Shown here: piece by piece, positions 4,031 to 63,540 of the stretch
Layout of the letters: each line of letters begins with the position of its first letter
Position numbering within the stretch: position 1 is the first letter of the stretch
Origin: Imbricaverruca yamaguchii
Lineage: Eukaryota; Arthropoda; Thecostraca; Neoverrucidae
Reading direction: 5' to 3'
NCBI GenBank assembly: GCA_034440575.1
Contig: JAOTOL010001397.1
Span: 434,001 to 498,000, forward strand
DNA: 64,000 bases
Translations under genes and position numbers: made by a program
The notes under the pieces: model-generated
Databases searched by the model: none
Seen by the model: the letters and a program-made list of their open reading frames with translations, nothing else
What the model was told of the DNA's origin: nothing

Positions 4031-4067
4031 TATGTGATGCCGGTTCAGCCTGGAAACCGTCAGCGCA

Positions 4068-7830: not shown

Positions 7831-8039
7831 CAGAGAGGTCTGCCTGTAGGTGGAAAACCCTTAATAAAGAGGAACAAAATAGGCTTACTATGATTAATAT
7901 GCAAAACAATACTAACAATTGAACCATATTTTCCGATATATATAATATGTAATGACCATTTGAAAACAACGGTGCCAGAAATTCGAAGAGTTTCAGCAAA
8001 GTGGCGGGGGCTCTAAGTAGGTAGCGGCACTCCCCAGAT

Positions 8040-29144: not shown

Positions 29145-30816
29145 GCCGCCCCGTTAGCTCAGTTGGCTGGAACGCTGGCCTGCACTGGTCTCCCCGATTC
29201 TAGGACAAATGTACGTAAGGACAAATATAGGTATTGCAGATGTACGTAAGCAAATGTATGTAGGCAAATGTACGTAAGCGCAGATGTACGTATGACAATT
29301 GTACGTAAGCGCAGATGTACGTATGGCTAATGTACGTCAGCCCAAAAGTACGTATGGCAAAAGTACGTAAGCGCAGATGTACGTATGCGCAAAAGTACGT
29401 AAGCGCAAATGTACGTAAGCGCAAAAGTATGTATGCGCACATGTACTTAAGCGCAAATGTACGTAAACGCAAATGTACGTATGCGCAAAACTACGTATAC
29501 GCAAATGTACGTAAGCGCAAAAGTACGTATGCGCAAATGTACGTAAGCGCAAATGTACGTATGCACAAAAGTACGTATGCGCAAATGTACGTAAGTGCAA
29601 ATGTACGTATGCGCAAAAGTACGTAAGAGGAAATGTATGTAAGTACAGCTTTACGTAACCCAGGTGTATGAAAGCGCTCGTGCACGTATGTACAAATGTA
29701 CGTAAGGATGCGCAAATGTACGTAAGCGCAAATGTACGTAAATGTAGCGCTTACGTACTTGTTACTTTCGTACATTTGTTCGGTTACCACATGTATGCAT
29801 ACGTACACGTGCAGCTCTCACACACTTCGATTACGTAAAACTGTATTTAGATACATTTGTCCTAACGTACTTTTGCGGTTACGTACATTTGCGTATACGT
29901 ACCTTTGCGCATACGTACATTTGCACTTACGTACATTTGCACATACGTACATTTGCGCTTACGTACATCTGCTCATACGTACATGTGTACATACGTACAC
30001 GAGCGCTTTCATACACCTGGGTTACGTAAAGCTGTACTTACATACATTTGTTCATACGTACATTTGCGCATACGTACATTTGCGCTTACGTACATTTGCG
30101 CATACGTACTTTTGCGCATACGTCCATTTTCGCTTACGTACATTCGCGCATACGTACATTTGCGCATACGTACATTCGCGCATACGTACTTTTGCGCATA
30201 CGTACATTCGCGCATACGTACATTTGCGCATACGTACATTCGCGCATACGTACTTTTGCGCATACGTACATTTGCGCTTACGTACATTTGCGCTTACGTA
30301 CATTTGCGCATACGTACATTTGCGCATACGTACATTTGCGCATACGTACATTTGCGCATACGTACATTTGCGCATACGTACATTTGCCATACGTGCTTTT
30401 GCGCTTACGTACATTAGCCATACGTACAATTGCGCTTACGTACACTTGCCATACGTACATCTGCGCTTACGTATATTTGCTTACATACATTTGCGTACGT
30501 ACATCTGCCATACGTACATTTGCTTTACGTACATTTGTCCGGTTACCGGTCTCCCCTATCCTGGCAACACAGGGTTCGAGCCGCTTCGCGCGCTCGGATT
30601 TAGCTCCCGGCTGGGCGGGTAGGTTAGCAGCTGGCCTGACGAGGCCGGGGTCAAGTTACCGGGCGGTCTTGTCGGTGCATTGACGGCACGTTGAACCTTC
30701 CGTCAAAATTCCGTCGTTGAACTGGATTAATGGATCGGGTGGTAGGACCAGGGCCCAGGCAACAGGCTCTGCTTAACAATAGGATCCTGGCTCATAAGGC
30801 CACCCCAGTAAGAACA
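29145..30816 (+). mobile_element. tRNA-derived SINE, copy 3, split by an insertion
   Basis: The 5' part with the A box (GTTAGCTCAGTTGG) is at 29,145-29,195. The rest, from TATCCTGGCAACAC through the B box GGGTTCGAGCC to CACCCCAGTAAGAAC, is at 30,557-30,816. The two parts join cleanly once the 1.35-kb insertion and one copy of GGTCTCCCC are set aside, as comparison with copy 2 shows. Confidence 0.85.
29196..30547. mobile_element. Foldback-like element made of inverted repeat arrays
   Basis: About 1.35 kb composed of 14-17-bp repeats of the type ACGTAAGCGCAAATGT in the left half (to about 29,750) and its reverse complement ACATTTGCGCTTACGT in the right half. Landmarks mirror each other: the block at 29,645-29,692 (TTACGTAACCCAGGTGTATG) is the near-perfect reverse complement of that at 29,988-30,035. 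Both ends carry GGACAAATGTACGTAA inverted. The element is flanked by a 9-bp direct duplication GGTCTCCCC (29,187-29,195 and 30,548-30,556) of SINE sequence. Long terminal inverted repeats built from internal tandem repeats plus a 9-bp target duplication are the hallmarks of Foldback-type elements; Mutator-like elements also make 9-bp duplications. No transposase is present. A third landmark copy at about 29,805-29,850 makes the right arm longer. Confidence 0.8.
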
Positions 30817-30955: not shown

Positions 30956-31310
30956 CAAAAAAAAAAAAAAATCCCCATTTTTTAATTTAATTCTCCCCCC
31001 CCCCCCTAAAAAAAAAAAAAACCCTACCCCCCCTTTTTTTTTTTTTTTATAACACCCCCCCACATTATTTTTTTTAAAAAATTTTTTTTTTTTTGTTCAC
31101 CTCCCCCCCTTTATCTTTTTTTTTTTTTTTTTTTTTAAATTTTTTTTTTTTTTTTCTCCTTTGAATCAAATTTTTTTTTTTATAAAAATTTTTTTTTTTT
31201 TTTTTAATAAAAAATTATTTTTTTAATTTTTGAAAAAAAAAATTTTTAATGTTTTTTAATTTTTTTTTTTTTTTTTTTTTTTAAATTTAAAAAATAAAAA
31301 AAAAAAACCG
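30956..31310. repeat. Homopolymer-run low-complexity region
   Basis: Made almost entirely of long A, T and C runs in succession, unlike ordinary poly(A) tails or microsatellites. It may be real low-complexity DNA or a consensus or base-calling failure. Confidence 0.7.
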
Positions 31311-31847
31311 CCGATTAACGGGTTTCGACCATTAGAGGAAGTAAACTTTGGTAGATTTAAAGTGTTGAACTATTTCATGCTCGGAATCATTGGAAGTTCT
31401 GTACATCCCCGTCTGTAGCCCCCGAAACGCGTCCCGTGCAGTGTTGGCATTCTCCTAATGCAAGGCCGTCTACAAGCATAATGCGTCAAGCAGATGTTTA
31501 CTTAGTGGGAGACCTAGTGACTAGTGCCTCCAAAGGTTTTGGTCGTTGTGGTATGTCGCGCTGCTATAAATAAGATCACTGGTGCGGTGATTTGTCATGA
31601 AAACTATCGACCTAGATGTGGTTGGCGACAGGAGGAAATACCGCAGCCTGCCATGGCATTGCAAGCCATGCAATCACGAAGAGGTAAGGTGCTGCGGCAC
31701 TATGATAGGTGGTAGATTTGGGTAAGTTAGGTTAGGTGAGGCATGTTGTGTTTGAATTGTAAAATATGTTTGGGATAAAAACATGGTGTTTGTCCCTGGT
31801 GGGGGGTTGGCTTATCTTTTATTTTCTGTGTAAATGCTTACTTGTAT

Positions 31848-34069
<2,222 letters not shown>

Positions 34070-34690: not shown

Positions 34691-34797
34691 GAAGCATAAA
34701 CAGGGTGGACACTGTTGTTATCTCGCCACTAGTAAGTGTGCTAGATGACATACTTGCTGCATTCACAGGTGATATCTCCACATCTTCTGTGTGTCAG

Positions 34798-34885
34798 CGA
34801 TTTCCGAATCAAGTTAAACGCGTTTCAAGTTTGGTTCCGCAACTTTGACGATGAGCAAAAGAACATAGTCCTTCAGGAGCTGATG
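34798..34885 (+). CDS. F-box/WD40 gene, first visible exon
   Basis: Encodes DFRIKLNAFQVWFRNFDDEQ and on to LQELM. The 3' splice site TCTGTGTGTCAG ends at 34797; a second possible acceptor (TTCACAG) ends at 34768. The donor is ATG|GTGAGG, phase 0. The W-F-x-x-[FW]-x-D-[ES]-Q-[KR] pattern matches the region just upstream of the F-box in FBXO16-like proteins. An in-frame ATG at 34745 exists, but an upstream start exon is more likely. No minisatellite adjoins this exon; intron 1 (402 bp) is ordinary. Confidence 0.8.
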
Positions 34886-37800
34886 GTGAGGCAAGATATA
34901 TACTGTCCTGATATTATGTCGCGACCTGTCTCCATATGGACATACTCCACAGTTGTCTCCTTCACTTCGCTGGTGCCGGGGATCAGACTGTACCCTGAAT
35001 CTTCTGAGTAACTTGGCTGAATTCTATAAATAGCTGAACTAATCAATGAAATTCCGCCTGATCGTCGTTCCTTCTGTGGCCGTTTCTTCTGTTGGCCCCT
35101 GGCTGAAGCTGGCTGTGCATACTCCTGTGTCCAGTATCTCATCTGGGACTGGCCGTGGACTGTCTTGCGTCTTTGTGATGGCCTTGATTCATCACCATCA
35201 TTGTGTGGTACTGGTAGTGGGGCCGCGTCACCGATGTCAGTCTGACCGGGTCGCTCGGCCACAAACGACACGCCCGGCCGCCCACAGGGCCTGTGCGGGC
35301 CGGCGCAGAACCACCTGCTGTCGGTGCGGCTGCAGGACTCGCTGCACGAGCGGTGTCCGCCCAACTGCCAGGACCTGCTCTCCTGGCTACCGGCCCACGT
35401 AGTGCACGTAGTGCTCGGCTACCTGGACCCCGTCAGTCTAGCACGCTGCAGTGCCGTCTGTCGGTGAGTGGTCACCGGCTCCCCTGGTGACGGACGGCCG
35501 TGGTGTTGACAGACGGTGACGGACGATCGTGATGTTGACAGGCGGCGACGCTCGCTGTCGGTGTCGAGAGCTCGTGAGGAGCAGCTACCTGTGTGACAGA
35601 TGGTGACGGACCACTGTCGTTGACAGACGGTTATGGACAGTTCTCGGTGTTGACAGACGGCTTTGAACGACTGTCAGTGTTGACACATGGTGACGGACTG
35701 CTGTCGATATTAGCAGACAATGACGAAGGGTTGTCGGTGTTGACAGACTGTGACGGACGGCTGTCGTTGTTGACAGCCAATGACGGACGGCTGTCGTTGT
35801 TGACAGACGGTGGCGCAGTATGGCCGGCGGCCGAGTGCTGTGGCAGCGACTATGTCTCCGCCCCGAGTGGCAGGTATCTCCCGATACCCACAGCAAGCAG
35901 CTGGGCGAGCTGACGACCGACGGCCGCGTCGACTGGCGACAGGTAACTCCTGAGTAGGCAGGTGACTAGTCACTGATGTGTAGCTGGTGACAGGTAACTT
36001 CTGAGTAGGCAGGTGACTAGTCACTGATGTGTAGCTGGTGACAGGTAACTTCTGAGTAGGCAGGTGACTAGTCACTGATGTGTAGCTGGTGACAGGCAAC
36101 TTCTGAGTAAGCAGGTGACTAGTCACTGATGTGTAGCTGGTGACAGGTAACTTCTGAGTAAGCAGGTGACTAGTCACTGATGTGTAGCTGGTGACAGGTA
36201 ACTTCTGAGTAGGCAGGTGACTAATCACTGATGTGTAGCTGGTGACAGGTAACTTCTGAGTAGGAAGGTTGCTAGTCACTGATGTCTTGCTGGTGACAGG
36301 TAACTTCTGGGTAGGCAGGTGACTAGTCACTGATGTGTAGCTGGTGACAGGTAACTTCTGAGTAGGCAAGCAACTAGTCAATAATATGTAGCTGGCGACA
36401 CGTAACTTGTGAGTAGGCAGGTGACTAGTCACTGATGTGTAACTTGTGTCAGGTAACTGGTGGCTACAACAGATAACTACCACACATAGGCAGGTAACTA
36501 GTCATTGGTGTGCAACTGGTGACTGATAACAGGTAACTGGTGACTGGCGACAGGCTTGACAGCACAACCGGTGGCTGGCGACAGGTATTAGTGTTTGATA
36601 TCACAACCGGTTACTGGCGACTAGTGGCTTACTGGCTACTGAATATAATGGATTGATACAGTGTGGTGCATAACTTGGGACTGGTGACAGACACAGGCAG
36701 CTGGTCACTGGGGGCTGGCACCTGACCACAGGTAGTTACACATAACTTGGGACTGGTGACAGATATAGGCAGCTGGTCACTGGGGGCTGGCACCTGACCA
36801 TGGGTAGCTACACATAATTTGGGACTGGTGACAAACACAGGCAGCTGGTCGCTGGGGGTTGGCACCTGACTACGGGTACCTACACATAACTTGGGACTAG
36901 TGACAGACACAGGCAGCTGGTCACTGGGGGCTGGCACCTGACCACAGGTAGCTACACATAACTTGGGACTGGTGACAGACACAGGCAGCTGGTCACTGGG
37001 GGCTGGCACCTGACCACGGGTAGCTACACATAACTTGGGACTGGTGACGGACACAGGCAGCTGATCACTGGGGGCTAGCACCTGACCACAGGTAGTTACA
37101 CATAACTTGGGACTGGTGACAGACACAGGCAGCTGGTCACTGGGGGCTGGCACCTGACCACAGGTAGCTACACATAGCTTTGGACTGGTGACAGAAACAG
37201 GCAGATGGTCACTGGGGGCTGGCACCTGACCACAGGTAGCTACACATAGCTTTGGACTGGTGACAGGCATAGGTTGCTGGCAACTGACGGCGGGTAATTG
37301 CACGTGGCTAACATATACTAGCCATGCATTGACCATGACCTTTTGGAGACATCTACTAACAAAGCAATGGGGTATGATTGGTCCTCTCCTGTTTGAGAAT
37401 GGCAGATAACGAGTCCCACAGCTCCAATTCGGCGACGTTCACATTTAGGGTACCTGCAGTACAGCCTTCGACTTCCGACCTGCGACCACCGACCAAGCGC
37501 AACTGTCTGCGAGTCGGTGTTAGGCGCTCCCCGGCCCGACCTTGCCGTTGGCTATCCGGTGTGGAGATGCAACGGCTGGAATGGTCACACAGCTGCCCAG
37601 CTGCATTGGTCGGCTATTCGGTATCAGGATGTAACGACCGCGTTGGTTACACAGCTGTGCAGCTAAGTTGCAGTTGGTTGTTCGGTCTGGGTGTAGCGAC
37701 TGCGTTGGTTACGCAGCTGCCCAGCTGCGTCGCAGTTTCCATGTGGCCTGTATGGGTGTCTTAGCCGAGTACGGCTGTTGTTGTGCTGCAGTGTCATCTT

Positions 37801-40800
37801 GTGTCTCACGTTGTGCAGGTGTTCGTGCAGAGGTATCGTCTGCGACGTAACTGGCTGCTCGGCCACTGTCACGTGCGCACATTTGAGGGTCACGGCCAGG
37901 GCATCTCATGCGTGCAGTTTGACGACACGAGGATTGTCAGCGGCTCACATGATAACAGCATCAAGGTGAGCTGCTCACGGCAACATCATGGTGAGCTGCT
38001 CACAAGAACAGCATAAAGGTGAGCCGCTCACGATAACAGCATCCAGACGAGCTGCTTACGATAACACCATAAATGTGAGCTGCTTACAACAAGGTAAGCT
38101 GCTTAGGGTAGCATCATCAAGATAAGCTGATCACGGTATCATCAAGGTGAGCTGCTCACGGTAACAGCATCAAGGTGAGCTGCTTATGGTAACAGCATCA
38201 AGGTGAGCTGTTAGGGTACCAGCATCAAGGTGAGCTGCTTGGGGTAACTGCATCAAGATGAGCTGTCATGGTAACAGCATCAAGGTGAGCTGCTTATGTT
38301 AACAGGATCAAGGTGAGCTGCTCACGGTAACAGCATCAAGGTGAGCTGCTTATGGTAACAGCATCAAGGTGAGCTGCTCACGATAACGGCATCAAGTTGA
38401 GCTTCTCACGGTAACAGCATCAAGTTGAGCTGCCTATGCCTGGTCGGTTGGCGTCAGCCGCCACAGCCCTGTGCCGCGTTTAGTCGCATTTGATGTGGTT
38501 TTATCAAGTGGTACAATTCTCTCTCCCGCAACGAAACTGGTGGTCACTGTGGCCACGAGTTATGATTGCTGGTTGTTCCGTATCATCATTGTTAAATATA
38601 ATATTTCCGCATATTCATGAGAGCGTTTTTTTTTTGTCAAGTCCAAGCAAAGGCATAGCAAGCAAGCTTGGCAGGGGCAAAGCGTGGTATAAGATCGTCA
38701 CTTTTTATTCGATCTTCCATGCCAGTGATGCCTGTCTCGGTCCGTCTGCCCGACTGTCTTCCTGCCCGTATGTATGAGGGAAAGTTGAAAACTATAGGCC
38801 AGTAAGTCTGACATCCCTAATGTGCAAGGTACTCGAATCAATTGTCAAGGATAGAATGGTTAGTTGTCTGGAAGGAAACCAATTGATTCAAGGTACTCAA
38901 CAGGAAAGGACGATCGTGTCTCACAAATCTTTTGGGCTTTTTGAACTTCGCCACAGAACAATTTGATCATGGAAATCTGGTTGATGTAGCATATCCTGAC
39001 TTTAGTAAGGCCTTTGACAAGGTACCCCATAAATGGTTCATGATGCAGCTTCAGGCCAATGGTATTGCAGGTAGCATCTTAAAATGGATAGAGTTGTGGC
39101 TTTCAGATAGACAGCAAAGAGTGGTGCTAAATGGTACAAAGTCATAGCAAAATGTTCTTAGTGGAGTCCCCCAGGGGTCAGTACTGGGGCCACTACTGTT
39201 CATTATATTTGCAAATAACATTGAAAGTGGCCTGAGCAGTAAGGTTTTGAAATTTGCGGATGATTTGAAGGTCTTTAGGGCAATAACACGTCAAAATGAG
39301 TATATCTCGCTCAAAAAGACTTAGACGAACTTGTGAAGTGGTCCGAAGAATGGCAAATGAAATTTAATTTTGATAAGTGCAAAATCATGCATGTAGGTAA
39401 GCAGCATATGAAGGCTCCATACTTGATAGGTGGCCAAGTACTATCAGTGACTCAACATGAGAAGGATTTAGGTGTTATTCTAAACACAAAATTGGGGGCA
39501 TCAGAACAGATCAAGGAAGCCAGGAAGAAGGCACTGATAATGCTTGGGGCAATAAATAGGAATGTATCATACAGAAGTGAGGAAGTCATCAGGAAGCTTT
39601 ACTGTGCATATGTCAGGCCACATTTGAAATACTGTATCCAAGCTTGGTCTCCTAGCTATGAAAAAGATTGTTGGCTTTTAGAGAGGGTGCAAAAAAGGGC
39701 TACAAAAATGGTTAATGATATAAGCAACCTGGCATATGATGAAAGATTGAAGAAATTGAATATGTTTTCACTTAGATATAGAAGGCTGAGAGGAGATCTC
39801 ATCAAGGTCTTTAAATTTGTCCATTGTCTGGAGAGGGGATATCTTGGGGAAATGTTTGAATTGAACAGAAATGATGCAATTAGAGGTCATCCATTCGAAA
39901 TTAAAGTTAACCACAGCAGAAAAAGGTTAAGACAGTCTTTCTTCACCAACAGTGCAGTAGAACACGAACCAACTGCCAGAAACCATTGTAAATACCAGCA
40001 CATTGAACATCTTTAAAAATAGCATAGACAATCACCATAAGAATAGTGGGGTTGCTTTTCAGTATTCCAGAGAGGGCTGATGGATGGATTTGGTGGGCAA
40101 CTGGTGGAGTGTACAGAGTGCAACCAAGAAGGGCCCTTGTGGCTCATAGTTGCACCAATATTTTATGTCTATGTCTATGTATGTGTGTATGTATGTATGT
40201 ATGCATGTATGTATCTGTCTGTGAGTGACTGTGAGTGTGCCGGTGACTGCGGGTGAAACTGTGACTGACTACGGCCAGGTGTGGAACATCAGAACCAACT
40301 CGCCGTGGTCGGTGATGACTCTGCTGGGCCACTCGGGCACCGTGCGCTGCCTCCATCTGCTGGAGAACAGACTCATATCCGGCTCAACCGACACGACCAT
40401 CAAGGTGAGTGAGCCCTGCATGGAAGCCGAATGGTGCGACAGTCAGCGCTCTGTGCTGTGGTTGAAATGCTGCCAGTTCGAGGCTCAATGTGTGCGTTAC
40501 AAATGTGCTTGTCTCCTCTGAAGTATGTAACATGACCTCCCTGTCACCCACTAATCCAAAGATATGTCAAGGGATCAAGTCCATCCATCGTGGCAGAAGC
40601 GGATCTACACAATTCCTAGTTAAGAGAGTTCTCCCATATCACCCGAACACCTCGGCATACTTTGAGTTCGTTCGCACCACCGTGATCGCTCGCCCGGACA
40701 CAGAGCTGGGTGTAGCTCAGCAGCCGTTCGAAGTGGCATATATCTTTTAACTAGCATATGGTAACAACTAGTTTGGAGACAAGAGGGTGTCCTGTTGGTC

Positions 40801-43800
40801 CACAGGTACCGGTGACCCATCCCCTGGGTTGTACCCACGGACCGCACCTACGTGTGGCCCAGCATCCCATCTCGTCAGCATCTCACCTTTCAGGTGTCAC
40901 ATCTCGCACAAATTATCCCAATGCAACCTGTCGCCGTGACATAATATTCGTTGAAGGCCTGCCTTGTACTTAGAAGCTCCAAAGGTCATGCGACTGATCT
41001 AACATTTCGCTGCGTTGCAAGCTGCATGTGGCCACAACACGGCCGACATTATGCTTTCTGCTGCGATGGCAGTTGCCAATGTCTACGTCTGCGTGCGGTG
41101 GTGGGTGCCTTTACTTCACGGGCAAGTTTAACGTGAAGTCAGTTGTGAAGTCGGTGGTCAGTGGATCATCGGCACATTGTTGAAAGCCGTGTTTTAGCGG
41201 CAATTTTCGATGAAACATTTAATGTTATTATTGTGAAACTCAAAATTTACCTCTACTACAGCATTTCAATTTAGAAACCTGGCGGTCGTTTTATGTTCAG
41301 CTCCCAGGATCGTTACTTCACGCATTACACATGCACCCGCACGGAAGCATGCAAATGCACGCATGTACGCATACGCATGCACTATAGCGATTGGTGACAG
41401 ACGGCTGTTTCAAATCTCCCGCAGTGGGGTCAGCCTCGTTACTTGGCTGGCTGTGGAAATGGTAACCACACATGCCCCGATAGGGGGGGGGGCGATTGGA
41501 AGCATGGAAGCGTTACGGAGGGCTCACGCAGTCCCCGCCGTCTTTCCCTCTATTCCCTTCCTTGGGCCAGCTTCCCCTGGCCTACCCGTCTGCTCAGTTT
41601 TATCGGGGTAGTCGCGCCTCTCCCGGCTCTTCCTCCGGGATTGACGGAGTCCTGGAGCTTGAGGTCCCTCGTCGCACGGTGCTAGTTGTGACGGGGAGCA
41701 AAACGCCTCTTCGGCCCCGATATCCCGGAGGGGTGGGCGGGCCCGTAGGGCTCCATGCGAGCCAAGTGACTGATCGCCTCGGGCCAAGGGCTAGGAGCCT
41801 GGGTTTATTCCAAGTGCCTGCCGGCTCGTCCGGCTGGGGTCAAGTGGAGGGCACCGCTAACGTGCGGTTGGGGTAGTGAGCAAGGTGGTAATTAAGGCAT
41901 TTCTTCAGATATTTTATCTCTGAAAACATTTTTGCACTCGGGTTCATACTGGATATGATGGGTTTCACATGTACTCCGACACAAGTATGGGAACAGAGAT
42001 GTCAATAAAAACAAACAGAACGATAGCCACAAAAATGCTAGTTATTCCACTTATGGTTACCACTCAAGTTAATCACTTTTCTTAGCAGTCACCAGCCAGA
42101 CCACAGTTTCACACACTTCATTCAAGCTCAACCACCGGAAAACCTGCGTTCACGCACTCATATAGTGGGAAAAATTGACAATTTTGTGAGCCATCCACTG
42201 AAGTCGCGCTGAGAGCACCGATCAGAAATAGCTGAACTAGTGCTTTCTGTTTTGAAATCTGTCTGTCCACCAGTCGATGCAATGTATTTGTATATGACGT
42301 CATAACAATTAGCAACTTTGAACACATTGTTAACAGTGTCATGCCGCAAATACAAGACCCTGACTAAGCCTTTGCTTTGTGCACGGCTATCGAAATACAG
42401 TTGGCGTGAGTGATCGCGGATGTGGTTCCGTATCACGTCCGTAATTAGCTTCGTAGGTAGGTATGGGCTCTAAGCTGAGGGTGAAGTCTAAAGTACTGTG
42501 TTTGCTTTTTATATGACATTGTACTGAAACTAGCAGAGCCATTGGAGGGAAAGCGCATTGCTCGTGTGAGTTATGAGATACGCAGTTGTGCTGGTTATCA
42601 CGATTTGCTACCAGGCGGTGTCATCCATTGTTCCCTTTTTCGTATGCTTTGCCATTTGATTTGACCAAAAATGACAATGCATATTGCTTATGCATATTAC
42701 GTACTGACTACATTGGCTTCCCCCGTCGGTTACCGATAAACAGATTTGATACATCAAAAATAATACGCCCACAAAGGTGTACTCCGGCCGGAGTCTGTAT
42801 GCACTCCGACTCTAAACACGGAAAGTAAGGTCCCCACTGGTGGTGAGCCCCTCTCCCGGCCGCGTAAAGGCGCCGCCTGCCCCATATAGCTTCGTGGACG
42901 TTTGGCGTCCTGCTGTTACGGCAGCAGGTGTCCCCCCGTAGGGCCCCTTGTGGTCATACCCTCGCCCTGGTCTTGATTCGGACGATTCGTCGTTCCCTGT
43001 CTTCCCCATCCGAGTCCCACGCCTCCTCGGTGAGGCCCGATCTTGACACTCTCTCGGCTAGCCGAGACGTCGAGACTGACGACTGACGACCTGACGGACC
43101 CGTGCCGTCCGTCGGGACGACGCCACCTGGCATGACACATGAACGTGAAACCGAGGTAGAGCCTGAGTCCGTCAACCTAACTGTCCTGATATTGTCCAAT
43201 TCAGAGCTCAGACTGCCAAACCTCAGCCCGTTGTAACGGTGTGAGTGTCTGAGCGGTTCGGTACAGTGGGACGGTGCGACAGATGGGGCGATTGTGGCAT
43301 CGAAGTGGTATTTTGCGGTTCCGGTGGAAGCTAGGTGTGCATTAAGCCATGATAAACGTAGCTGACTGTCTCAAACCTACAAAGTACGATGGACGAATTT
43401 ACGTTTTTTCGCGGAACTCTGGAATCGACTGTCTGTCCTTTCTTATCACATGGGACCGTACTATCAGAGTTACGTGAATTTGTTTATGAAACGGTCTGCT
43501 AGCCTCACTTCGACTGATCTGACTTTAGCTAGCCTGGCTGTTGGACCTGTCCACCCAGTCGCCCACTGGTGGTCAGCGTGACCCCGGCTGACCTGTGCTG
43601 TGTGCTGCAGCTGTGGGACCTGTCCACCCAGTCGTACACTGGTGGTCAGTGTGACCCCGGCTGACCTGTGCTGTGTGCTCCAGCTGTGGGACCTGTCCAC
43701 CCAGTCGTACACTGGTGGTCAGCGTGACCCCGGCTGACCTGTGCTGTGTGCTCCAGCTGTGGGACCTGTCCACCCAGTACACTGGTGGTCAGCGTGACCC

Positions 43801-46800
43801 CGGGGCTGTGTGTGGCTCAGCTGTGGACCTGTCCCCAGTCGCCCACTGGTGGTCAGCGTGACCCCGGCTGACCTGTGCTGTGTGCTCCAGCTGTGGGACC
43901 TGTCCACCCAGTCGCACACTGGTGGTCAGTGTGACCCTGGCTGACCTGGGCCTTGTGCCGCAGCTGTGGGACCTGTCCACCCAGTCGTACACTGGTGGTC
44001 AGTGTGACCCTGGCTGACCTGGGCCTTGTGCCCAGCTGTGGGACCTGTCCACCCAGTCGCACACTGGTGGTCAGCGTGACCCCGGCTGACCTGTGCTGTG
44101 TGCTCCAGCTGTGGGACCTGTCCACCCAGTCGTACACTGGTGGTCAGTGTGACCCCGGCTGACCTGTGCTGTGTGCTCCAGCTGTGGGACCTGTCCACCC
44201 AGTCGCACACTGGTGGTCAGCGTGACCCCGGCTGACCTGTGCTGTGTGCTCCAGCTGTGGGACCTGTCCACCCAGTCGTACACTGGTGGTCAGCGTGACC
44301 CCGGCTGACCTGTGCTGTGTGCTCCAGCTGTGGGACCTGTCCACCCAGTCGCCCACTGGTGGTCAGCGTGACCCCGGCTGACCTGTGCTGTGTGCTCCAG
44401 CTGTGGGACCTGTCCACCCAGTCGCACACTGGTGGTCAGTGTGACCCCGGCTGACCTGTGCTGTGTGCTCCAGCTGTGGGACCTGTCCACCCAGTCGCCC
44501 ACTGGTGGTCAGTGTGCCCGCTTGACCTGTGCTGTGTGCCCAGCTGTGGGACCTGTCACCCAGTCGTACACTGGGTGGTCTGACCTGTGTGTGTGCCCAG
44601 CTGTGGGACCTGACCAGTGCACTGGTGGTCAGCGTGACCCGGCTGGCTCCAGCTGTGGGACCTGTCCACCCAGTCGTACACTGGTGGTCAGCGTGACCCC
44701 GGCTGACCTGTGCTGTGTGCTCCAGCTGTGGGACCTGTCCACCCAGTCGTACACTGGTGGTCAGTGTGACCCCCGGCTGACCTGTGCTGTGTGCTCCAGC
44801 TGTGGGACCTGTCCACCCAGTCGTACACTGGTGGTCAGTGTGACCCCGGCTGACCTGTGCTGTGTGCTCCAGCTGTGGGACCTGTCCACCCAGTCGCACA
44901 CTGGTGGTCAGCGTGACCCCGGCTGACCTGTGCTGTGTGCTCCAGCTGTGGGACCTGTCCACCCAGTCGTACACTGGTGGTCGGTCAGTGTGACCTCTGT
45001 GGTCAGCGTGACCCGTGACCTTGTGTGCTCCAGCTGTGGGACCTGTCCACCCAGTCGCACACTGGTGGTCAGCGTGACCCCGGCTGACCTGTGCTGTGTG
45101 CTCCAGCTGTGGGACCTGTCCACCCAGTCGTACACTGGTGGTCAGTGTGACCCCGGCTGACCTGTGCTGTGTGCTCCAGCTGTGGGACCTGTCCACCCAG
45201 TCGCACACTGGTGGTCAGTGTGACCCCGGCTGACCTGTGCTGTGTGCTCCAGCTGTGGGACCTGTCCACCCAGTCACCCATCGGTGGCCAACAGTGGTCC
45301 AGCATCGCCTGCAAGGTCACCATGGTGGGACACAGCGACACAGTGCGCTGCGTACAGGCGAGTGGCTCACCTGGTCCTCACCACCACTGATTGGTGGCGC
45401 TCGAAGTGACGTCACAAGTCGGTGTGATCTGATCGCTGGCGTCTGGTCCGTCTGGTCATGTCTGGTCCAACACATGACAGTCCAGCAGGTCATGTCTGAT
45501 GTGCCTGGTCATTACTGGTCGTCGTCATAACAGTCGGTCGACTATTAAGTGTGGCACAGCTCGGTGTGACACTGTTCAGTGTGACACAGCTCAGTGTGAC
45601 ATTGTTAGTAGTCCACGCGCCCTTAAGCCCAAATAATCAGTGTGACATTGTTCAGTGTGACACAGCCCATTGTGACACAGCTCGATGTGACACTGCTGAG
45701 TGTGGCTCAGCTCGGTGTGACACTGTGCATTGTGACAACTCTGTGTGACACAGCTCGGTGTGACACAGTTCGGTGTGACACTGTTCAGTGTGACACAGCT
45801 CAGTGTGACTGTTCGGTGTGACACTGTTGAGTGTCACACAGCTCAGTGTGACGGCTCGGCAGTAATACATTATTCGTCAAATAAGGTGGAAAATACCACT
45901 TTCTGGACACTCAATCGCCATCATTCTCCAAGAAGTATCGACATCTTGCTCCATGATGCGTGCTTATGAAGTCTTCGTGTCTCCTTTCTAGCAGCATCTC
46001 GTTTATACGTAACATGTCAATGCTCCTAATAAGGAATAGTGACACACGGACATTTCGCAACGTAATTTTGGGTAAAGTGATTAACTATGTGATATGGCGT
46101 GCGGTACAAAATTATCGCATAGGTAATTTTCTCCATGTCCTGAATACAGCTCTTCCTAAATTATGAATATCAAAGCAAATGACAAATGTACAGTCATAAG
46201 TACCTACACCATTGGCTCAAATTTGAGTCTGAAAATACACCCAAATCACTTTAATTGACACTATTTCCATGGAAAATTTCAACATCCTTCTGTGCCCATT
46301 TAGACATCTCACCTAACGAAAAAGAAATATTTTAACCCTGCGGCTCGGTGTGACACTGTTAGGTGTGACAGTGTTGAGTGTGACACAGCTTGGTGTGACA
46401 CAGCTCAGTGTGACACTGTTCAGTGTGACACGGCTCAGTGTGACACAGCTCGGTGTGACACAGCTCAGTGTGGCACAGCTCGGTGTGACACAGCTCGGTG
46501 TGACACAGCTCGGTGTGGCACAGCTCGGTGTGACACAGCTCGGTGTGACACAGCTCGGTGTGGCACAGCTCGGTGTGGCACAGCTCGGTGTGAACAGCTC
46601 GGTGTGACAGCTCGGTGTGGCACAGCTCGGTGTGACACAGCTCGGTGTGAGGTGTGACACAGCTCGGTGTGGCACAGCTCGGTGTGGCACAGCTCGGTGT
46701 GACACGGCTCGGTGTGGCACAGCTCGGTGTGGCACAGCTCGGTGTGACACAGCTCGGTGTGGCACAGCTCGGTGTGACACAGCTCGGTGTGACACAGCTC

Positions 46801-49800
46801 GGTGTGGCACAGCTCGGTGTGACACAGCTCGGTGTGACACAGCTCGGTGTGACACAGCTCGGTGTGACACAGCTCGGTGTGGCACAGCTCGGTGTGACAC
46901 AGCTCGGTGTGACACAGCTCGGTGTGACACAGCTCGGTGTGACACAGCTCAGTGTGACACAGCTCGGTGTGGCACAGCTCGGTGTGGCACAGCTCGGTGT
47001 GACACAGCTCGGTGTGACACAGCTCGGTGTGACACAGCTCGGTGTGACACAGCTCGGTGTGACACAGCTCGGTGTGACACAGCTCGGTGTGGCACAGCTC
47101 GGTGTGACACAGCTCGGTGTGACACAGCTCGGTGTGACACAGCTCGGTGTGACACAGCTCGGTGTGGCACAGCTCGGTGTGACACAGCTCGGTGTGACAC
47201 AGCTCGGTGTGACACAGCTCGGTGTGACACAGCTCGGTGTGACACAGCTCGGTGTGACACAGCTCGGTGTGACACAGCTCGGTGTGACACAGCTCGGTGT
47301 GACACAGCTCGGTGTGACACAGCTTGACACAGCTCGGTGTGACACAGCTCGGTGTGACACAGCTCGGTGTGACACAGCTCGGTGTGACACAGCTCGGTGT
47401 GACACAGCTCGGTGTGACACAGCTCGGTGTGACACAGCTCGGTGACACAGCTCGTGTGACACAGCTCGGTGTGGCACAGCGGTGTGGCACAGCTCGGTGT
47501 GACAGCTCGTGTGACACAGCTCGGTGTGACACAGCTCGGTGTGACACAGCTCGGTGTGCACAGCTCGGTGAGTACGCTCGGTGTGACACAGCTCGGTGTG
47601 ACACAGCTCGTGTGGTCAGCTCGGTGTGCAAGCTTGTGCACAGCTCGGTGTGACACAGCTCGGTGTGACACAGCTCGGTGTGACACAGCTCGGTGTGACA
47701 CAGCTCGGTGTGGCACAGCTCGGTGTGCCACAGCTCGGTGTGACACAGCTCGGTGTGACACAGCTCGGTGTGGCACAGCTCGGTGTGACACAGCTCGGTG
47801 TGACGCAGCTCGGTGTGGCACAGCTCGGTGTGACACGGCTCGGTGTGACACGGCTCGGTGTGACACAGCTCGGTGTGACGCAGCTCGGTGTGGCACAGCT
47901 CGGTGTGGCACAGCTCGGTGTGCCACAGCTCGGTGTGGCACAGCTCGGTGTGGCACAGCTCGGTGTGACGCAGTGTGTCCGTCGCCAGATGGACGCCGAC
48001 AAGGTGGTGAGCGGCTCGTACGACCACACGCTGCGTGTGTGGTGTGTGCGCGGCGGCCGCTGTCAGGCCGTGCTGACTGGCCACACGGGCCAGATCCTGT
48101 GTCTGCGCTTCAGCTGCCACCAGCTGGTCAGCGGCGCCGCCGACAACACCATCAAGGTCAGTCGGTGCCGTGTGCCGGCCGATGCCGCCGGCAGTTACGT
48201 ACCAAGACCCCGTCCCTGCCAAAGGGCAGGAGCAAGAACAGCACGCCTCTTCCACCCTCTCTTCTTATTCCGGTATCCGTCCTGTGTCTTAAGTCCTACG
48301 TCCACCCAGCAGCATACTCTTCCAGTCATGAGCAAATTAGCCAGCTTCCTCTGGTCTTTAGTTGTAAAGTTCTGCAGTGTGGTAGGCTTAATAACAGCCA
48401 CAGTGGCCATCTTGGTTATGCCTATCAAGGGAAGATGCGAGAAAAAAGTACACCATAACACCCCAAGCAATACCATATCACAAATTTAAAAGGGACTTCA
48501 TACCCCAGCCTATTTATCCCATTTCACTTCATATTGCATAACACACTCTCCATAACTCACTCATAATACCTACAACCTAGCACTTACTGATAGGGATAAA
48601 CGCCCATGTACTTTTGGTTTTGCTAGTACAACACCAATCAAAAGAATCAGTGTTATGCCACAGCAGTGTTAAAATATTGGTTTTTCATTAGGTGTGAGAT
48701 GTCGAAACGACCTACAGGTACCTAATTGACTTTGTGCGTCATCAGTTGTTTTGAAATTCAAATGTTAGGAAGAGCTATATTCGAGATAGCGATAAAACGT
48801 CATACTTAGCAAACGTGGTAATGTTAGAAAGGAGACTCGAGGACTTCATAAGCACGCAATAAGAAGCAGGATGTCGATACTTCTTGGAGCAGGATGTCAA
48901 TTGAGTGTTCAGAAAGTGGTAAATTCCACCTTATTTTACGAATAATTTAACACTGTGCCACAGCAATATTTTGATTGCCCTCCTAATGGTCACACCACAC
49001 TGGTATCCACCATCGGAATTTGTATTTGCTGTCAAGCTCGTTTGAAGGGAAGATATAAATGTGACTAAATATTTCAGGTTCACTTGTGTTTTAATTCAGA
49101 AGTGGAATTTAAAGAAAATTTGTTACAACAAGCTTCTTAAGATGACTAAGATGATGCGACCACTAATTTCTGGTGCAAATGCATATGTTTCAGCTAGTGA
49201 TAAAAAAGTTATAAAAAGGGAGAGGTGGGAGAATGTATAATGAAGAAAAGGTATGATGGTTTTTATATAGGTTGCTAAATGATCACGTTTTGGTCGAAGC
49301 GCCCTTGAACTAAAATAACTAACTATTATGCTTCATGGCATTTACAAGCCAAGTTTTCCATACATTTACCTCCATGAAGAAGACAATGTACGGTTGGTTA
49401 GGTTAGGTTATGTGAGGTTTTTGTATTTGGAAAACATTTTGACTTTCTAGTTAAATTTTTGTTTTTGGTCAATTTCCCGAAAAACAGGCTCAGCTAGGTT
49501 ATGTTTAGGCCTGGTTTTTAATTTGAAAAATTGTTGGTAAACAGATTTTGTATATTGTTTGACGTTCCTCTATCCTGGAGGATATGCTAGGCTACGTTGG
49601 ATTGGTATATGCTGCATTTTTCCTTTCCTAATTTATTTTATGGTATGTCACCTAATTCTAAGCCCTTCTTGGTGTTATTTCGCCTGCAAACTGAAAAGTA
49701 AACAGGTTGCACAGGAAATTGGCGATCACATGTTTACCGTATTGAAAAGCATTGCATTTGGTAATGAAAGTCCACGGCACCTTATATATTAAGCACCTTA

Positions 49801-52800
49801 ACACGCGCCCTGGAAAGCCTCTGAAAATTACGCGCACTGAAAGGGGGGCCGATTCCACCCCCCCTAAGATCTCGGCTCCTATCAAAGCTGGAGTAACGAA
49901 ATTCACAGGGTGGATGGGTACGGTGGTGAATTCTATCTTGTGCAAATTTCATAACCTTAGCTCAATAACTTCGAGGTCAAACGAGGTAAAAGGAAAAAAG
50001 TGTTTAAAAATGCTCCAAAATGGACATCAATGATGTTTTGGATATTACTAATTATGCAAGACCCGGTATTTGACCTCAGGTCACCTGTATAACCACTTTG
50101 TCAGGTCATTACCTGCTCCAGTTACCGAAACCGGGCCGCCCGCCCGACTACTCCAACAACAATGAGAAACAGTAGTTTTCAGGATGTGTAGGGAGTAATA
50201 TGCAAGATGACATCAATCGCATGACAGTCATTCGCATTTATGACAACATTGCTGTTGGCCAAGTTTGGTTCCATTAACCTTCCATGAACTTGACCTGACT
50301 TGACCTCGGTGACCTAACATGACTTTGAAACTATAAAGCATAACAATATACATCAAACAAGTCGCTATTGTTGCGAAGAACACTTCCCATTTGCCAATAT
50401 ACGGGAAGCGCATCAGCGCCGATTTTCGTGGTCTGGCTCTTATATTTTTTTTTTCTTTAACGACACCTAACTCGACAAATCTTCGGCCGATTTTCGTTTT
50501 TCTTGCTCTAAGCAATGCGCCGACCATTTCTAAGCAGGTACGCAAGCAATGGCGTATATCGCCGGGTAAAATCTGGATTTTGCCCCACCCCTTCCAGGGC
50601 GCGTGTTAAAGCACAAATTTACTGTTTTAAAACTTACCTTAACCTAACTTTTGTCGGAACAAAATTAAATACTTCATTTTCAAACGATTCACAAGTATTT
50701 GTAAGTGAAAATTACAATACAGTAACTAAACCTAACCTAATCTCCTTTGTTTTATGAACGAAAATCATGTGATGGGTTTATCTTGCATTCAAACTAAATT
50801 TAATTAATAACACATTTCAGAGGACGCCTGGGCTCTTCAATTAAATTTGTGTATTTGAATTGACAGGCGCCTATATATTTGGTGCCATCATTTTAACACC
50901 AATAATTGAATGACTTAGCACTTGGTGTGCACAGATCCATGAAAGCAAGGTAGTTGAATCAGATGTTCACGATCAATAATTCCACAAGGCTTGCACATTT
51001 TCATGATGATGTCAGGCGTATGTCGAAATTATGAGGTCGTCAGTGGTTAGAATGGTTTTATTCTAACCATTCTGGTTTTATGCCCTGCTAATGCCAGCTT
51101 GTCATTTCCGTATTATATCTGTACACAGTTCCGCCAATCATACCAATCACTCATCTCTTCACTTTCCTCACCCTGTTTAGGCATAGTAGCAGAGCAATGC
51201 AGTGCCTGAAGCACTGAATGTGCTATGTGTGTACTGACAGATGTGGCCTCTGCCAGCTGACAGGCGTGGTCTGCACGTGCTGACATGTGTGGTCGCTGTG
51301 TGCCGACAGGTGTGGTCGTTGACGGCCGGACGGTGTATCCGCACGCTGTGTGGTCACGAAGGCGCCGTGACGACGCTGACTTTCGATGAGCATCGCATCA
51401 TTTCGGGATCGCTGGATTGTACTATTCGGCTCTGGAGTCTGCATAGTGGTGCCCCCCTGGCCGTGCTTGACTGGATCAAAAGCGAGGGTCACACAGGTCA
51501 GGCACTATCAAGAACGGAGCGTACAGGCGAGACCATGTCATCGCACGCAGCATCACGCGGGTGGTTCTAATCCTTGTATACCTAAAGCCCAAATAACTAG
51601 CCAACTTGTATACTTGCGTTCAAACCTGTGTTACATACAGTATGGAAGCCTTTTGTGTTTGCTAGCTGAAGGAATATGAAAATTCACGCGGCAAAAAAAT
51701 TGTTAAATTGAATCGGTTGCCGATGTGTCATGAGTTCCTGGTGGGTGCCAGCTGTGCGTTCCTAGTGGCTATGTGAGGTGTGTTCCTGGTGGCTATGTGA
51801 GGTGTGTTCCTAGTGGCTATGTGAGGTGTGTTCCTAGTGGCTATGTGTGGTGTGTTGCTGATGCTTTGGTGTGGTGTGTTGCTGATGGCTGTGTGTGGTG
51901 TGTTGCTGATGACTGCGTGGTGTTTCGCTGATGGCTATGTGTGGTGTGTTTCTGTTGATTGGATGTGGTGTGTTGCTGATGGATGTGTGGTGGGTTGCTG
52001 ATGTCTGAATGTGATGTGTTGCTGATGCCTGAATGTGATGTGTTGCTGATGGATGTGTGTGGTGGGTTGCTGATGTCTGCCTTGCTGATGGCTGTGTGTG
52101 GCGTGTTGCTGATGTCTGTCTCAGGTGAGTTCCTGCTGGCTATGCGAGATGTCATGGTGGCAATGTGAGGTGTGTTTCTGGTGGCTATGTCAGGTGCGTT
52201 CCTTGTGACTGTGTGAGGTCTGCTGCTCGTGGCTACCTCAGGTAAGTTTCTGGTGACCATATGGGTTGGACAGCAAGGTGGGAGGGCGGTGACATTCTGG
52301 TCAAACATTTGTGCGAATCCTGTTGGAGAGACGCGCGACCATGTACATGGGCGACCGGATTGAACTTATATTGTCTTGTGCCCCGCTGCACCCGTCTAAC
52401 CCATCAATGCCAGAAGCGGTGACGCGCCCAGACATTCTCGCACCAAGTTGTCTGCGATGATAACAAGCTTTGGCTAGCTCTGACGTGCCAGGAAGGTGGG
52501 CGAGACAGCGCGCAAGGCCACGCAGACTCAGTTACACCTGTAATGGCCACGGAAACTCAGTTACACTTGTAGTGGCCACACAGACTCCATTACACCCGTA
52601 ATGGCCACACAGACTCAGTTGCAACTGTAATGGCTACGTAGACTCCCTTACACCTGTAATGGCTCCGCGGCTCAGTATCCAACGGAAGCAGTAGTTCGTC
52701 TTTCCAGATCTAATAGCGTCACTGAGTGTTTGGCACTGCCATGAGGTATGCGAGGTATTCAGTGTGAAAACGAGCTCAAAGTACGCAGAAAGGCGTAGTC

Positions 52801-55800
52801 ACGTGGACTGCGAATGTCTATATGTGATCGACCTGGTGTCACGCAAATCATGTGCTTCTGAGCTCACAACCGAGGCTCGCTGGCGGGCTATCTTCGACAG
52901 CTTCAATACTTTCGAATATGGCTTAGATCAATGTCTATAGTGAAACCAAACGTATTTCACGAAAAATAGAAGAAAGTTTGTTATGCCAGGTACTCCGGTA
53001 ACTGGCATGACCTACGTGTGTGATTTATCCCAAATATATAATTCCTTGGGATGACTGGATATTCGTCAGCGTTGACCAACAAATTTGTGAGCTGTGAAGT
53101 CCGAAAAGCGCCAGTTATAATTTTCGACGCGGTGTGGTTCCCACTTTCCATCGTTACACATGTCGTTTGGGATAAGTGCACACACTACCATGCACAAAAG
53201 AGTAATAGTGGTGTTTTGGGGCGAATGGAAGGCCGATGGAATAGCAGTGGGGTTGTTTTTATTAACTTTACAGAAGGTCCGCTCCACGCGCTTCAGTTTT
53301 TAACAAATAGACAAGTTTGCCACGGATATTGTAAAATCTGCCTCCTAGCCCCAGTGTCTTGCGGGACACCATTTGCCAAATATAACTTATCAGAAAAGTT
53401 CTGACGACTCGAGGCGCAACAGACACTCCATTGCGGCTCCAGTCTCCCCGCAGTGAGGTAATGTTCAACCCCTCTCAGTGTGGGAACTTTCGACCCCTGG
53501 CAGTGCGGGTGGGAGGGGAGGTAATTTGACATACTCGCCGACTAACTTCTGTCCTAAGCCAGATACAGAGATGTAGTCAACAACATAACTTAGTTCCATC
53601 CGTGAACTTTTGAGTTACCTAAAGCATGTTTATGTAGCTCCTATGGTTATCTTTCTGGTCAGGTCAAGTAGGTCAATGTCGGGGTGCAGTCAGTCTCCAT
53701 GTATTCACCGTAATTTTCGAGCTTTGGTCGTGAAACAAATGCGATTTCGTGTTTCCAAAATCGATCGTATGCAAACTGAAGACTTAGGCTGCATTCTTTG
53801 TCGCGTTCCGTCCACGAATTCCGTGGACTCTGGCGTCATGTGTCGTCCTTTGTCCATTCCTCACGAATTCCATGCCCAGATTTCGTGGATTCCCGGGGAA
53901 AGCGCGGAATGAAAAAAGGTGTCCAGCCCCGTCCTGGTCGGTTTTTTTCCAAGATGGCGACGCACATTGGAAGTGATTTGCGGGCCAAGGAAGATATTGC
54001 AAATTCGTAAGTAATGTTGTGGAGTGGATACGAATGCGCCAGATTGTGCGAAGGTGTCACTAATGAATGTCATGTTCCCACCGACGAGGATTTTCCTTTG
54101 CAGCGTGGTCAAATTATCAACTGTTGAGGTGAAACAGCAGGAAGCTAGACACTACCTTCAGAAGCTTCTTTTCCTAATTATTTGCATTTCCACCCAGTAA
54201 ACATGCCGATGTCGGCCCGTTGTCCCCATGTGTCGGGGCGAGCTCGACATCTCAAAACGGCATGCCGACATCGGGCCGCTCTCGGCCCGACATTGGCATA
54301 CTGATCTGAAATAGGAACATATGTCTGATTGAATTCAGAATATCAATAGCGGCCAGCTGACGTCAGGCCGTTGTCAGACATCCCACTCCACAGCTGACAG
54401 CGGCCACCTAGGATCCCGACGACAGCCTGACAGCGGTCCCACTTTGGCTGGGTGTCAATTGCTCCACTCATCAGCCGACAGCGGGCCACTGTAGTTCATA
54501 TAGCGGAACGACGTCGATCCGCTGTCGGCATGTTCACTGGGCAGTGACCAATGTAAATTTCCTCCCTACCCTTTACATGCCTGTCATAGCTTGCCCTGGA
54601 CATGTCTGACATTCATCTACCTAGAACACGATCCATCTCAAAATGGTTTCGCATTTTAAACTTTGATCGTATATCCATGTGCATTAAATTGCTTTGCATA
54701 ATTACTGGTATTGCCAACAAGCGATTCAACCACATTGCTTTAATGTAACAGCATGCAATTAATGCTAATCATAACAATTAGTAGGAAGGTTTGCGAACAG
54801 CGACACAAATGGCTCACATAAGTAATCCGGCGCGAAATTTCACAGAACGCTCTGCTGCTGCAGTCCACGAAATATGCGACGTCACAATCCACAGAATCCA
54901 TGAAATGAAGGAGACAAAGAACGCACCTTTAGTCCAACGCCATGACACGTACACAGGTCACTAGTTCAGTTTCAGGAAATAAGCCAGGGGCGCTGACTGG
55001 TGACGCGGAAAAGTGCGTCCGGCAGGTGTGGTGCGCTGTCTGGTGGCGGACAGGTGCCTACCACGTCTGTGTGGGTGTGTCCGGCAGGTGTGGTGCGTTG
55101 TCTGGTGGCGGACAGGTGTCTGCCATGTGTGTGGGGGTGTCCGGCAGGTGTGGTGCGCTGTCTGGTGGCGGACAGGTGTCTGTCACGTGTGTGGATGTGT
55201 CCGGCAGGTGTGGTGCGTTGTCTGGTGGCGGACAGGTGTCTGTCACGTGTGTGGATGTGTCCGGCAGGTGTAGTGCGCTGTCTGGTGGCGGACAGGTGTC
55301 TGCCATGTGTGTGGGTGTGGTGCGCTGTCTGGTGGCGGACAGGTGTCTGCCATGTGTGTGGGGGTGGTCGGCAGGTGTGGTGCGCTGTCTGGTGGCGGAC
55401 AGGTGTCTGCCATGTGTGTGGGTGTGGCCGGCAGGTGTAGTGCGCTGTCTGGTGGCGGACAGGTGTCTGCCATGTGTGTGGATGTGTCCGGCAGGTGTAG
55501 TGCGCTGTCTGGTGGCGGACAGGTGTCTGCCATGTGTGTGGGGGTGGTCGGCAGGTGTAGTGCGCTGTCTGGTGGCGGACAGGTGTGTGGGGGTGGTCGG
55601 CAGGTGTAGTGCGCTGTCTGGTGGCGGACAGGTGTCTGCCATGTGTGTGGGGGTGGCCGGCAGGTGTGGTGCGCTGTCTGGTGGCGGACAGGTGTCTGTC
55701 ACGTGTGTGGGCGTGTCCGGCAGGTGTGGTGCGCTGTCTGGTGGCGGACAGCTGGCGGATCGTGTCGGCGTCTGACGACAAGACCCTCAAAGTGTGGTCG

Positions 55801-62160: not shown

Positions 62161-62178
62161 CCACATCTGCATTAACTC

Positions 62179-63540
62179 ATGACAAAAACAAGGCAGATGG
62201 CAAGCCGAGAAGGGGGTCCATGTGTTAGGCAAAGTATACGAGCATGCCCTTCAGGGAAACTAGGAAATGGGGTGGGGAGGGATGAAATTGCATTGCCAAC
62301 TCAGGAATATTCCAATAATGACACTAGTGTGCCTTGGCTGACACTAGTGTCAGCCAAGGCAATAGAACCTCAAAGTCTGCAAATATGGACAGCAGCAACT
62401 CAAGGGGACAGAGTTTATAGTTCATCTAGTGATAAAAGAACTCAATATGAAAAAGCCAAAGGTGGTTATGGAGCATTTGTTAAGTGTATGATGTTTAATG
62501 CTCAGAGTATCCGTTCCAAATTTGATGAGTTCAAGTGTTATGGTGCTGAGGAGGAACCGGATTTTGTTTGCATTACGGAGGCATGGGTCAGTGAAGCGTA
62601 TTTTGGAGATAACTTACAGGACTATGAGATCCAGGGATACAATATGTTTTCGTGCAATAGGGGTCCAGCAATGAAAGAGGGTGGTGTAATGCTCTATATG
62701 AATAGCTTCTTCAGTTCTCAAAAAGTAGCAGGTGGGGATAAAAATGTGTCTGTGGAGTCCATCTGGCTTGATGTCACTGTGGGAAAAGGCAACAGCAATA
62801 CTCTTAGGATAGGAGCTTTCTGCCGATCAGGAACCCTGCCACATTCTCTGCAACTGGAGCTTGACAAGGTGATTTGTGAGGAAATCGGTAGAAACTTTAA
62901 GAGGAAGTGCCTTATTCTCGGTGCCTTTAATCTAAAAGGTTATGAAAATGCTGGTGTGGGCTCCCCATCAGTCAAAATGTTTAGGAAATGCCTTGAAGAG
63001 GACCTGTTCTTACACCAGTTTGTATCGGAACCTACCAGGCATGGTTCATTCTTGGACCTTGTATTCTCGGATTTAAGTGACTTGGTTCAAGACTTGACTG
63101 TGGGCCAAACTCTGGGAAAAAGTGACCATAACATAGTTAGATTCAAGGCACACGTAGGGGAAATTATCAAGGATAATTTGGTAAAGGTTCCAAATTTCAA
63201 CAGAGCAGACTTTAACGGCATGAGAGCGGCTTTAAGTGCCATCAGATGGGAAGAAGAATTATCCAATTTAAATGCCTGTGAAATGTGGGAAAAGTTCAAA
63301 TCTTACTTGAAGGAAACTCAGATTAGACATGTCCCCCAAAAGCAAAGACGCAAAAGAAGGGTAGGAAAGCCAGCATGGCTTACACCAGACGGGATAAAAG
63401 CAATTAAGGCTAAGAAAACTGCATTTATAGTTTTTAAAGAAGCCTCAAATGTCGTTAATCTAAAGGCGTATCGAAAAGCTAGACACTGTGAAGCAAAAAA
63501 ACAGAGCAGCAAAGCGAGCAAAAGAACTGGATTTAGCTAG
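62179..63540 (+). pseudogene. CR1-like LINE endonuclease (APE-type) region
   Basis: A 453-codon frame. From about residue 103 it matches apurinic/apyrimidinic-like endonucleases of LINEs: NAQSIRSKFDEF, VCITEAWVS (catalytic Glu), EGGVMLYM, FCRSGTLP, CLILGAFNL, SFLDLVFSD and SDHNIV (catalytic His). The usual GDFN is GAFN here, losing a catalytic Asp. The frame stops at 63,540 shortly after KTAFIVFKEAS, where the reverse transcriptase continues in another frame, which implies a frameshift near 63,490. The N-terminal 100 residues are not recognised. Confidence 0.82.
62331..62360. repeat. Perfect 30-bp palindrome
   Basis: Without a spacer, GCCTTGGCTGACACT is followed by its exact reverse complement AGTGTCAGCCAAGGC. 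ACACTAGTGT also occurs immediately upstream (62,321-62,330), so a short inverted duplication arose here inside the LINE frame. Confidence 0.85.

Follow-up and report, generated by a model that had tools for sequence, protein, structure and literature searches.

Why do the introns of one gene carry, in tandem, copies of their own exon-intron boundaries? This question is raised by a stretch of 64,000 nucleotides from the genome of the barnacle Imbricaverruca yamaguchii (the window; G000:C1164:434001-498000 of an assembly of 767 Mb in 1430 contigs), which contains at about 31.6-55.9 kb a gene for an FBXW7-like F-box/WD40 protein. An earlier note on this DNA had reported that minisatellite units in the introns of the gene copy the adjacent junction, and the observation as a whole was confirmed. 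A 24-mer junction probe composed of 12 exonic and 12 intronic bases, with up to 6 mismatches allowed, detected 61 copies of junctions within their own introns, in six of the nine introns. These arrays are probably of the type described as “mirages” in amphioxus, minisatellites seeded by tandem duplications that chanced to span the edges of coding exons.

The exon model was obtained by mapping the protein of the barnacle Amphibalanus amphitrite (P0001) back to the window by tblastn, which yielded ten coding pieces (Table 1). This protein was the best of the 120 matches listed out of 5155, with 86% over the whole query, and the other listed matches did not exceed 68%. Nine exons join in one open frame down to a TAG and are colinear with the A. 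amphitrite protein; the introns are numbered as in the earlier note. Intron 6 is of the GC-AG type (GC donor at 45358-45359), all others are GT-AG. A DNA search of the genome with one exon of the gene matched its own locus only. In the region of the upstream coding piece, homopolymer runs of A and T at 31000-32080 look like poor consensus.

Table 1. Coding pieces and arrays of the FBXW7-like gene (positions in the window) and stop-codon copies of RINT1. The slash indicates the exon-intron boundary.
Feature	Position	Strand	Evidence or remarks
Upstream coding piece	near 31615-31683		short, weak
Exon E1	34769..34885	+	tblastn with A. amphitrite P0001, splice consensus
Exon E2 (F-box region)	35288..35463	+	tblastn with A. 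amphitrite P0001
Exon E3	35807..35942	+	tblastn with A. amphitrite P0001
Exon E4	37819..37965	+	tblastn with A. amphitrite P0001
Exon E5	40279..40404	+	tblastn with A. amphitrite P0001
Exon E6	45253..45357	+	alignment to homologues; carries SPIGG insertion
Exon E7	47989..48156	+	tblastn with A. amphitrite P0001
Exon E8	51310..51496	+	tblastn with A. amphitrite P0001
Exon E9, last, terminates with TAG	55724..55935	+	tblastn with A. amphitrite P0001
Intron 2 array	35486..35812	+	30-bp unit, degenerate; 3 acceptor-junction copies (ttgacag/ACGGTG...)
Intron 3 array	35933..36458	+	51-bp unit, begins 10 bases inside E3; 9 of the 10 donor copies
Intron 4 array	37953..38433	+	28-bp unit (AACAGCATCAAG/gtgagctgctca...); 16 donor copies
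Intron 5 array	43537..45275	+	73-bp unit, acceptor plus at least 22-23 exonic bases; 19 acceptor copies, all with AG
Intron 6 array	46343..47973	+	15-bp unit; ends 15 bases short of the acceptor; not a junction array
Intron 7 array (two overlapping rows of Tandem Repeats Finder, TRF)	51234..51336	+	23-bp unit, weak; AG in 1 of 2 acceptor copies
Intron 8 array	55013..55751	+	60-bp unit, acceptor plus 28 exonic bases; 11 acceptor copies, all with AG
RINT1 stop-codon copies	about 15820-16510	reverse complement	L018+L028

Donors were amplified in introns 3 (10 copies) and 4 (16 copies), acceptors in introns 2 (3 copies), 5 (19 copies), 7 (2 copies), and 8 (11 copies), while the opposite end of introns 3, 4, 5, 7, and 8 had 0 copies. 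This agrees with the sides given in the earlier note, which had not listed the acceptor of intron 2 among them. Five introns had been named there as junction arrays; four of them (3, 4, 5, and 8) are clear, and intron 7 is weak, with two copies of which one has an AG. From the supposed weaker forms in introns 2 and 6, that of intron 2 stood, again as a weak case, and intron 6 had no copy, nor had introns 0 and 1 with the same probe. The six positive probes did not match any other intron of the gene or any position outside the gene within the window, and 20 single-base shuffles per own intron gave 0.00 copies. Since the amplified end is the donor in some introns and the acceptor in others, and the units differ, the arrays arose separately, as had been proposed. 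The true site is always the outermost copy, which is forced by the anatomy because the intact exon lies outside the array. The tenth donor copy of intron 3 is located at 36532, outside the array. Intron 2 (35464-35806) is nearly all 30-bp array, with a unit that by eye is similar to the donor side as well as to the acceptor side.

The exonic part of the likeness was evaluated on its own by comparing 30-mers of the exon edges with the unit consensus, using 300 shuffles of the top-ranking edge. The own edge ranked first in introns 4 (score 19), 5 (score 24), and 8 (score 28), and 0 of 300 shuffles reached these scores. It ranked also first in intron 7 with a score of 14 (2/300 shuffles). One of eight control arrays outside the gene (31-bp unit, 3238-4036) scored 14 on an unrelated edge with 0/300 shuffles, so that the score of intron 7 is no better than that of the best control. 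Introns 2 and 3 failed owing to a short or degenerate exonic share: the own donor of intron 3 scored 8, behind the own acceptor with 9 (41/300 shuffles), and in intron 2 the own acceptor was outside the top four and the own donor was fourth with 8. The exonic share of intron 3 comprises only 10 bases, 9 of which match in register. The comparison of units with exon edges that the earlier note had suggested was, therefore, positive for introns 4, 5, and 8. Intron 8 has another array, of a degenerate 24-bp unit (51766-52257), that also resembles the start of E9 (score 13, 6/300 shuffles) and is perhaps an older junction array.

The dozens of decoy sites predicted from these arrays are present. 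A GT or AG was retained in 54 of the 61 copies, and the core was identical to that of the true site in 32, namely in 8/10 copies in intron 3, 9/16 in intron 4 (a 9-base core; GT in 11/16), and 15/19 in intron 5; no decoy in introns 2, 7, and 8 had the full true-site core. With identical cores in introns 3, 4, and 5, the letters of a site cannot discriminate between true and false there, and exon context is probably what separates them. Use of a decoy would shift the frame or introduce a stop in 58 of 61 cases, so that, provided the protein is made, splicing should mostly take the site next to the exon. The protein itself may have been changed by an array: E6 carries an in-frame insertion of five residues, SPIGG, that is absent from all 17 homologues aligned (one of them, P0058, is missing the region), and this insertion falls inside the stretch shared by the exon and the 73-bp unit of intron 5.

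The pattern recurs in other genes of the genome. Chaperonin (CCT) genes were found by a family search, and four regions were picked for compactness before being read, although long open frames had already been seen in some. Junction copies were present in 2 of 6 introns of CCT2, 2 of 7 of CCT7, 0 of 7 of CCT4, and 0 of 5 of CCT8, in total 4 of 25 introns, two of which (CCT4 intron 2 and CCT8 intron 4) conceal an unplaced exon. The 68 probes from the five genes gave one cross-intron match with up to 6 mismatches and 131 with 8, and the limit of 6 was kept because the probe is no longer specific at 8. Intron 5 of CCT2 looks like an early stage, with 2.1 copies of a 96-bp unit that are 95% alike and start 51 bases within the exon. 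An intron of CCT6, chosen because two contigs hold it, adds a further case to this survey of array-junction overlap, which the earlier note had proposed. Its acceptor array with a 76-bp unit is present in both separately assembled copies, each with two exact acceptor-like decoys; the nearest copy reproduces the 24 readable exonic bases exactly and probably further ones. The two copies of CCT6 are 97.2% alike, differ in a neighboring array of a 30-bp unit (7.9 versus 10.6 copies), and may be alleles or a recent duplicate. A donor array in SYVN1/HRD1 (56-bp unit, 3.1 copies, about 24 exonic bases) was recognized by TRF and by eye, was not caught by the junction probe, and was left out of the counts. 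Two candidates were not counted: the MEMO1 intron before the FSIVPV exon showed a loose likeness only, and the acceptor of the last RINT1 intron had exonic sequence in three units, albeit at 8 mismatches and with no AG.

RINT1 (Pfam RINT1_TIP1, matched to the profile end) contributes a case of a different kind, because its stop codon together with the 3' flank has 8 further copies downstream. The stop codon of the FBXW7-like gene has none, and RINT1 is the single such case among these two stops tested. The RINT1 copies indicate that a splice site is not required, and the pattern seems to concern coding edges in general rather than just splice sites. The position of repeats in four genes (FBXW7-like, CCT2, CCT7, and CCT4) points in the same direction. 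Repeats covered 142 of 562 probe points in intron interiors (25%), 14 of 58 at 40 bases from a junction (24%), 10 of 58 junctions (17%), and 0 of 33 mid-exon points; they extend up to the exon edges and some tens of bases beyond, into the exon, where they end. Neither result supports the earlier suggestion of a process directed at splice junctions as such, and a splice-specific origin as the sole cause is weakened by the RINT1 copies and by the repeat cover of intron interiors, which is not below that of junctions. The raw material is abundant, as 52 minisatellite arrays make up 15.4% of 219 kb sampled in 22 stretches along the contig of the window; in the FBXW7-like gene, array cover is higher, at 29%.

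The simplest and most likely account is chance duplication with tolerance as a filter. A duplication inside an exon would break the protein, but one over an exon edge and the adjoining intron would be tolerated because the copy beside the intact exon can still splice correctly. Slippage or unequal exchange may then multiply the unit on the intron side, purifying selection would keep the exonic copy, and exon definition is presumed to direct the spliceosome to the copy next to the exon. Several counts weigh against a placement of the duplications that is blind to exon edges. Six of the 16 minisatellite arrays counted in the FBXW7-like gene cross a junction, compared to 0.28 expected from random origin (0 of 200,000 trials reached 6) and 0.40 from random survivable placement (0 of 20,000 trials). 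A permutation within introns, using arrays with a score of at least 80 and thereby dropping that of intron 7, gave 5 versus 1.3 in this gene (P = 0.001; P = 0.007 with a 15-base margin), 4 versus 1.46 in the four CCT genes alone (P = 0.051; P = 0.17 with the margin), and 9 versus 2.8 in all five (P = 0.0002; P = 0.0096 with the margin). The excess of edge-anchored arrays looks real, and its size depends on the null model. Exon edges seem to be preferred, perhaps owing to their GC-richness: the GC content is 59% in the FBXW7-like arrays, 61% in the exons, and 46% in other intron sequence. Moreover, CCT4 and CCT8, two of the five gene samples, have no case.

Because this excess remains, some preference for exon edges is possible, and a transcription- or splicing-coupled process, for instance via R-loops on a G+T-rich sense strand, might preferentially duplicate them. 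Of 51 arrays from nine gene regions, 41 had more than one half G+T on the sense strand, compared with 0.51-0.53 in non-array sequence of these regions, and the FBXW7-like arrays were skewed (GC skew 0.16 and TA skew 0.16, other intron sequence 0.01 and 0.03). The arrays of CCT4 behave oppositely overall (0.471, with 2 of 4 above one half), as do all but 2 of 5 in CCT2; the regions of HRD1, MEMO1, and RINT1 may include arrays outside the gene; and the skew may mean only that GT-rich units are prone to slippage or that C+T-rich ones were selected out as false acceptors. Coupling to splicing is also at odds with the amplified stop codon of RINT1, which is no splice site. Such a coupled process is, on balance, rather unlikely. 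The same doubt applies to its widest form, a mutational process acting genome-wide in barnacles and linked to the transcription of G+T-rich sense strands. It would repeatedly duplicate coding-exon edges, both splice junctions and coding ends, provide about one intron in six with decoys of its own splice site, have arisen independently of the amphioxus case, and be able to rewrite exon ends, as the insertion in E6 hints.

The arrays might instead be traces of intron birth by tandem duplication of AGGT-bearing exon sequence, as proposed for amphioxus globins (PMC3087553, in the accessible text). Intron 2, the one candidate here for an intron built of repeats, would fit, being almost all array (35486-35806 of 35464-35806) with a unit that by eye is like both exon ends, and about 70% of intron 3 is array. 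Yet, the donor probe of intron 2 found 0 copies, introns 4, 5, 7, and 8 measure 2.3-4.8 kb and are mostly non-array, and the arrangement of a new intron between two copies of one exonic duplication is absent from introns 3, 4, 5, 7, and 8, where a single end was amplified, which makes this origin very unlikely. There is no more reason to expect that the repeated sites were retained for a function such as regulation of splicing by decoys or microexons. The 32 exact cores and the 11 possible 28-base microexons of intron 8, flanked by AG and GT (AG/GT after each exonic stretch), would be suitable for this, but the frame stays open with only 3 of 61 decoys, copies decay (GT was lost in 5 of 16 in intron 4), and units, sides, and affected introns are unrelated. 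An assembly artefact is hardly credible. Long near-identical arrays are hard to assemble, and the homopolymer-rich stretches near 31.0-32.1 kb look poor, but the copies within arrays bear individual variants, two contigs assembled separately both hold the CCT6 array, and the pattern was seen again in several genes.

Other features were observed alongside. Two arrays of 16-bp units at 29206-30537 are mutually inverted, and a unit resembling theirs, also of 16 bp, is found again at the CCT4 locus (L034, reverse complement 7780-7918). Two open frames are retroelement-like, one in intron 4 (39300-40016, reverse-transcriptase-like by eye) and one downstream of the gene (62176-63991, endonuclease-like, with a Pfam match below the curated cut-off). 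A COX1 match at G000:C996:270910-272247 with 12 in-frame TGA codons represents DNA in mitochondrial code within the assembly, perhaps a nuclear copy.

The occurrence of such arrays in several genes opens old questions to testing: by what means the spliceosome selects one of several identical adjacent sites, whether junction duplications are a source of intron gain, and at which pace exon edges are rewritten. False repeated exons may also have entered the gene models of such genomes.

Ordinary intronic minisatellites have similar unit sizes, degeneracy, and homogenized interior copies. In contrast, exonic sequence is part of the barnacle units, which are anchored at an exon edge. Searches of open-licence papers for barnacle or crustacean cases, boundary-spanning repeats, or duplicated splice sites listed no arthropod case, and the accessible portions of some barnacle genome papers do not mention such arrays. 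Intron gain by tandem genomic duplication has been proposed for potato RdRp (PMC4974935, in part); there, too, a tandem duplication is the proposed source of splice-site-bearing sequence, but a new intron was gained, whereas existing junctions were amplified in the barnacle gene.

The closest relatives of the arrangement are the amphioxus mirages, minisatellite-like duplications of exon-intron boundaries (PMC3087553), so that the earlier opinion of an undescribed pattern has to be withdrawn. As far as the accessible parts of two papers go, they occur in Adh3, the globins BflGb6 and BflGb9, TnC, and PGBD5 (PMC3087553 and PMC3902484, the latter adding PGBD5 and citing troponin C). In the text available for these mirages, as here, tandem copies extend across the boundary and include exonic bases, which is clear for introns 4, 5, and 8, limited to 10 bases in intron 3, and weak in introns 2 and 7. 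Either the 5' or the 3' boundary may be affected, and many but not all copies have AG or GT. The mirage units measure 10-72 bp in Adh3 and 150-160 bp in the globins, compared to 23-73 bp at the junctions of the FBXW7-like gene. Copy number varies between haplotypes in amphioxus, to which the two CCT6 copies may correspond if they are alleles. Undisturbed splicing was reported for the mirages and is presumed for the barnacle gene. These passages do not mention an array at a stop codon like that of RINT1. The host there is a cephalochordate and not an arthropod, which is the place of discovery and no structural requirement. A trait of scattered lancelet genes has now been encountered, apparently independently, in several genes of one crustacean genome: this is a known arrangement in a new phylum, at notable density.

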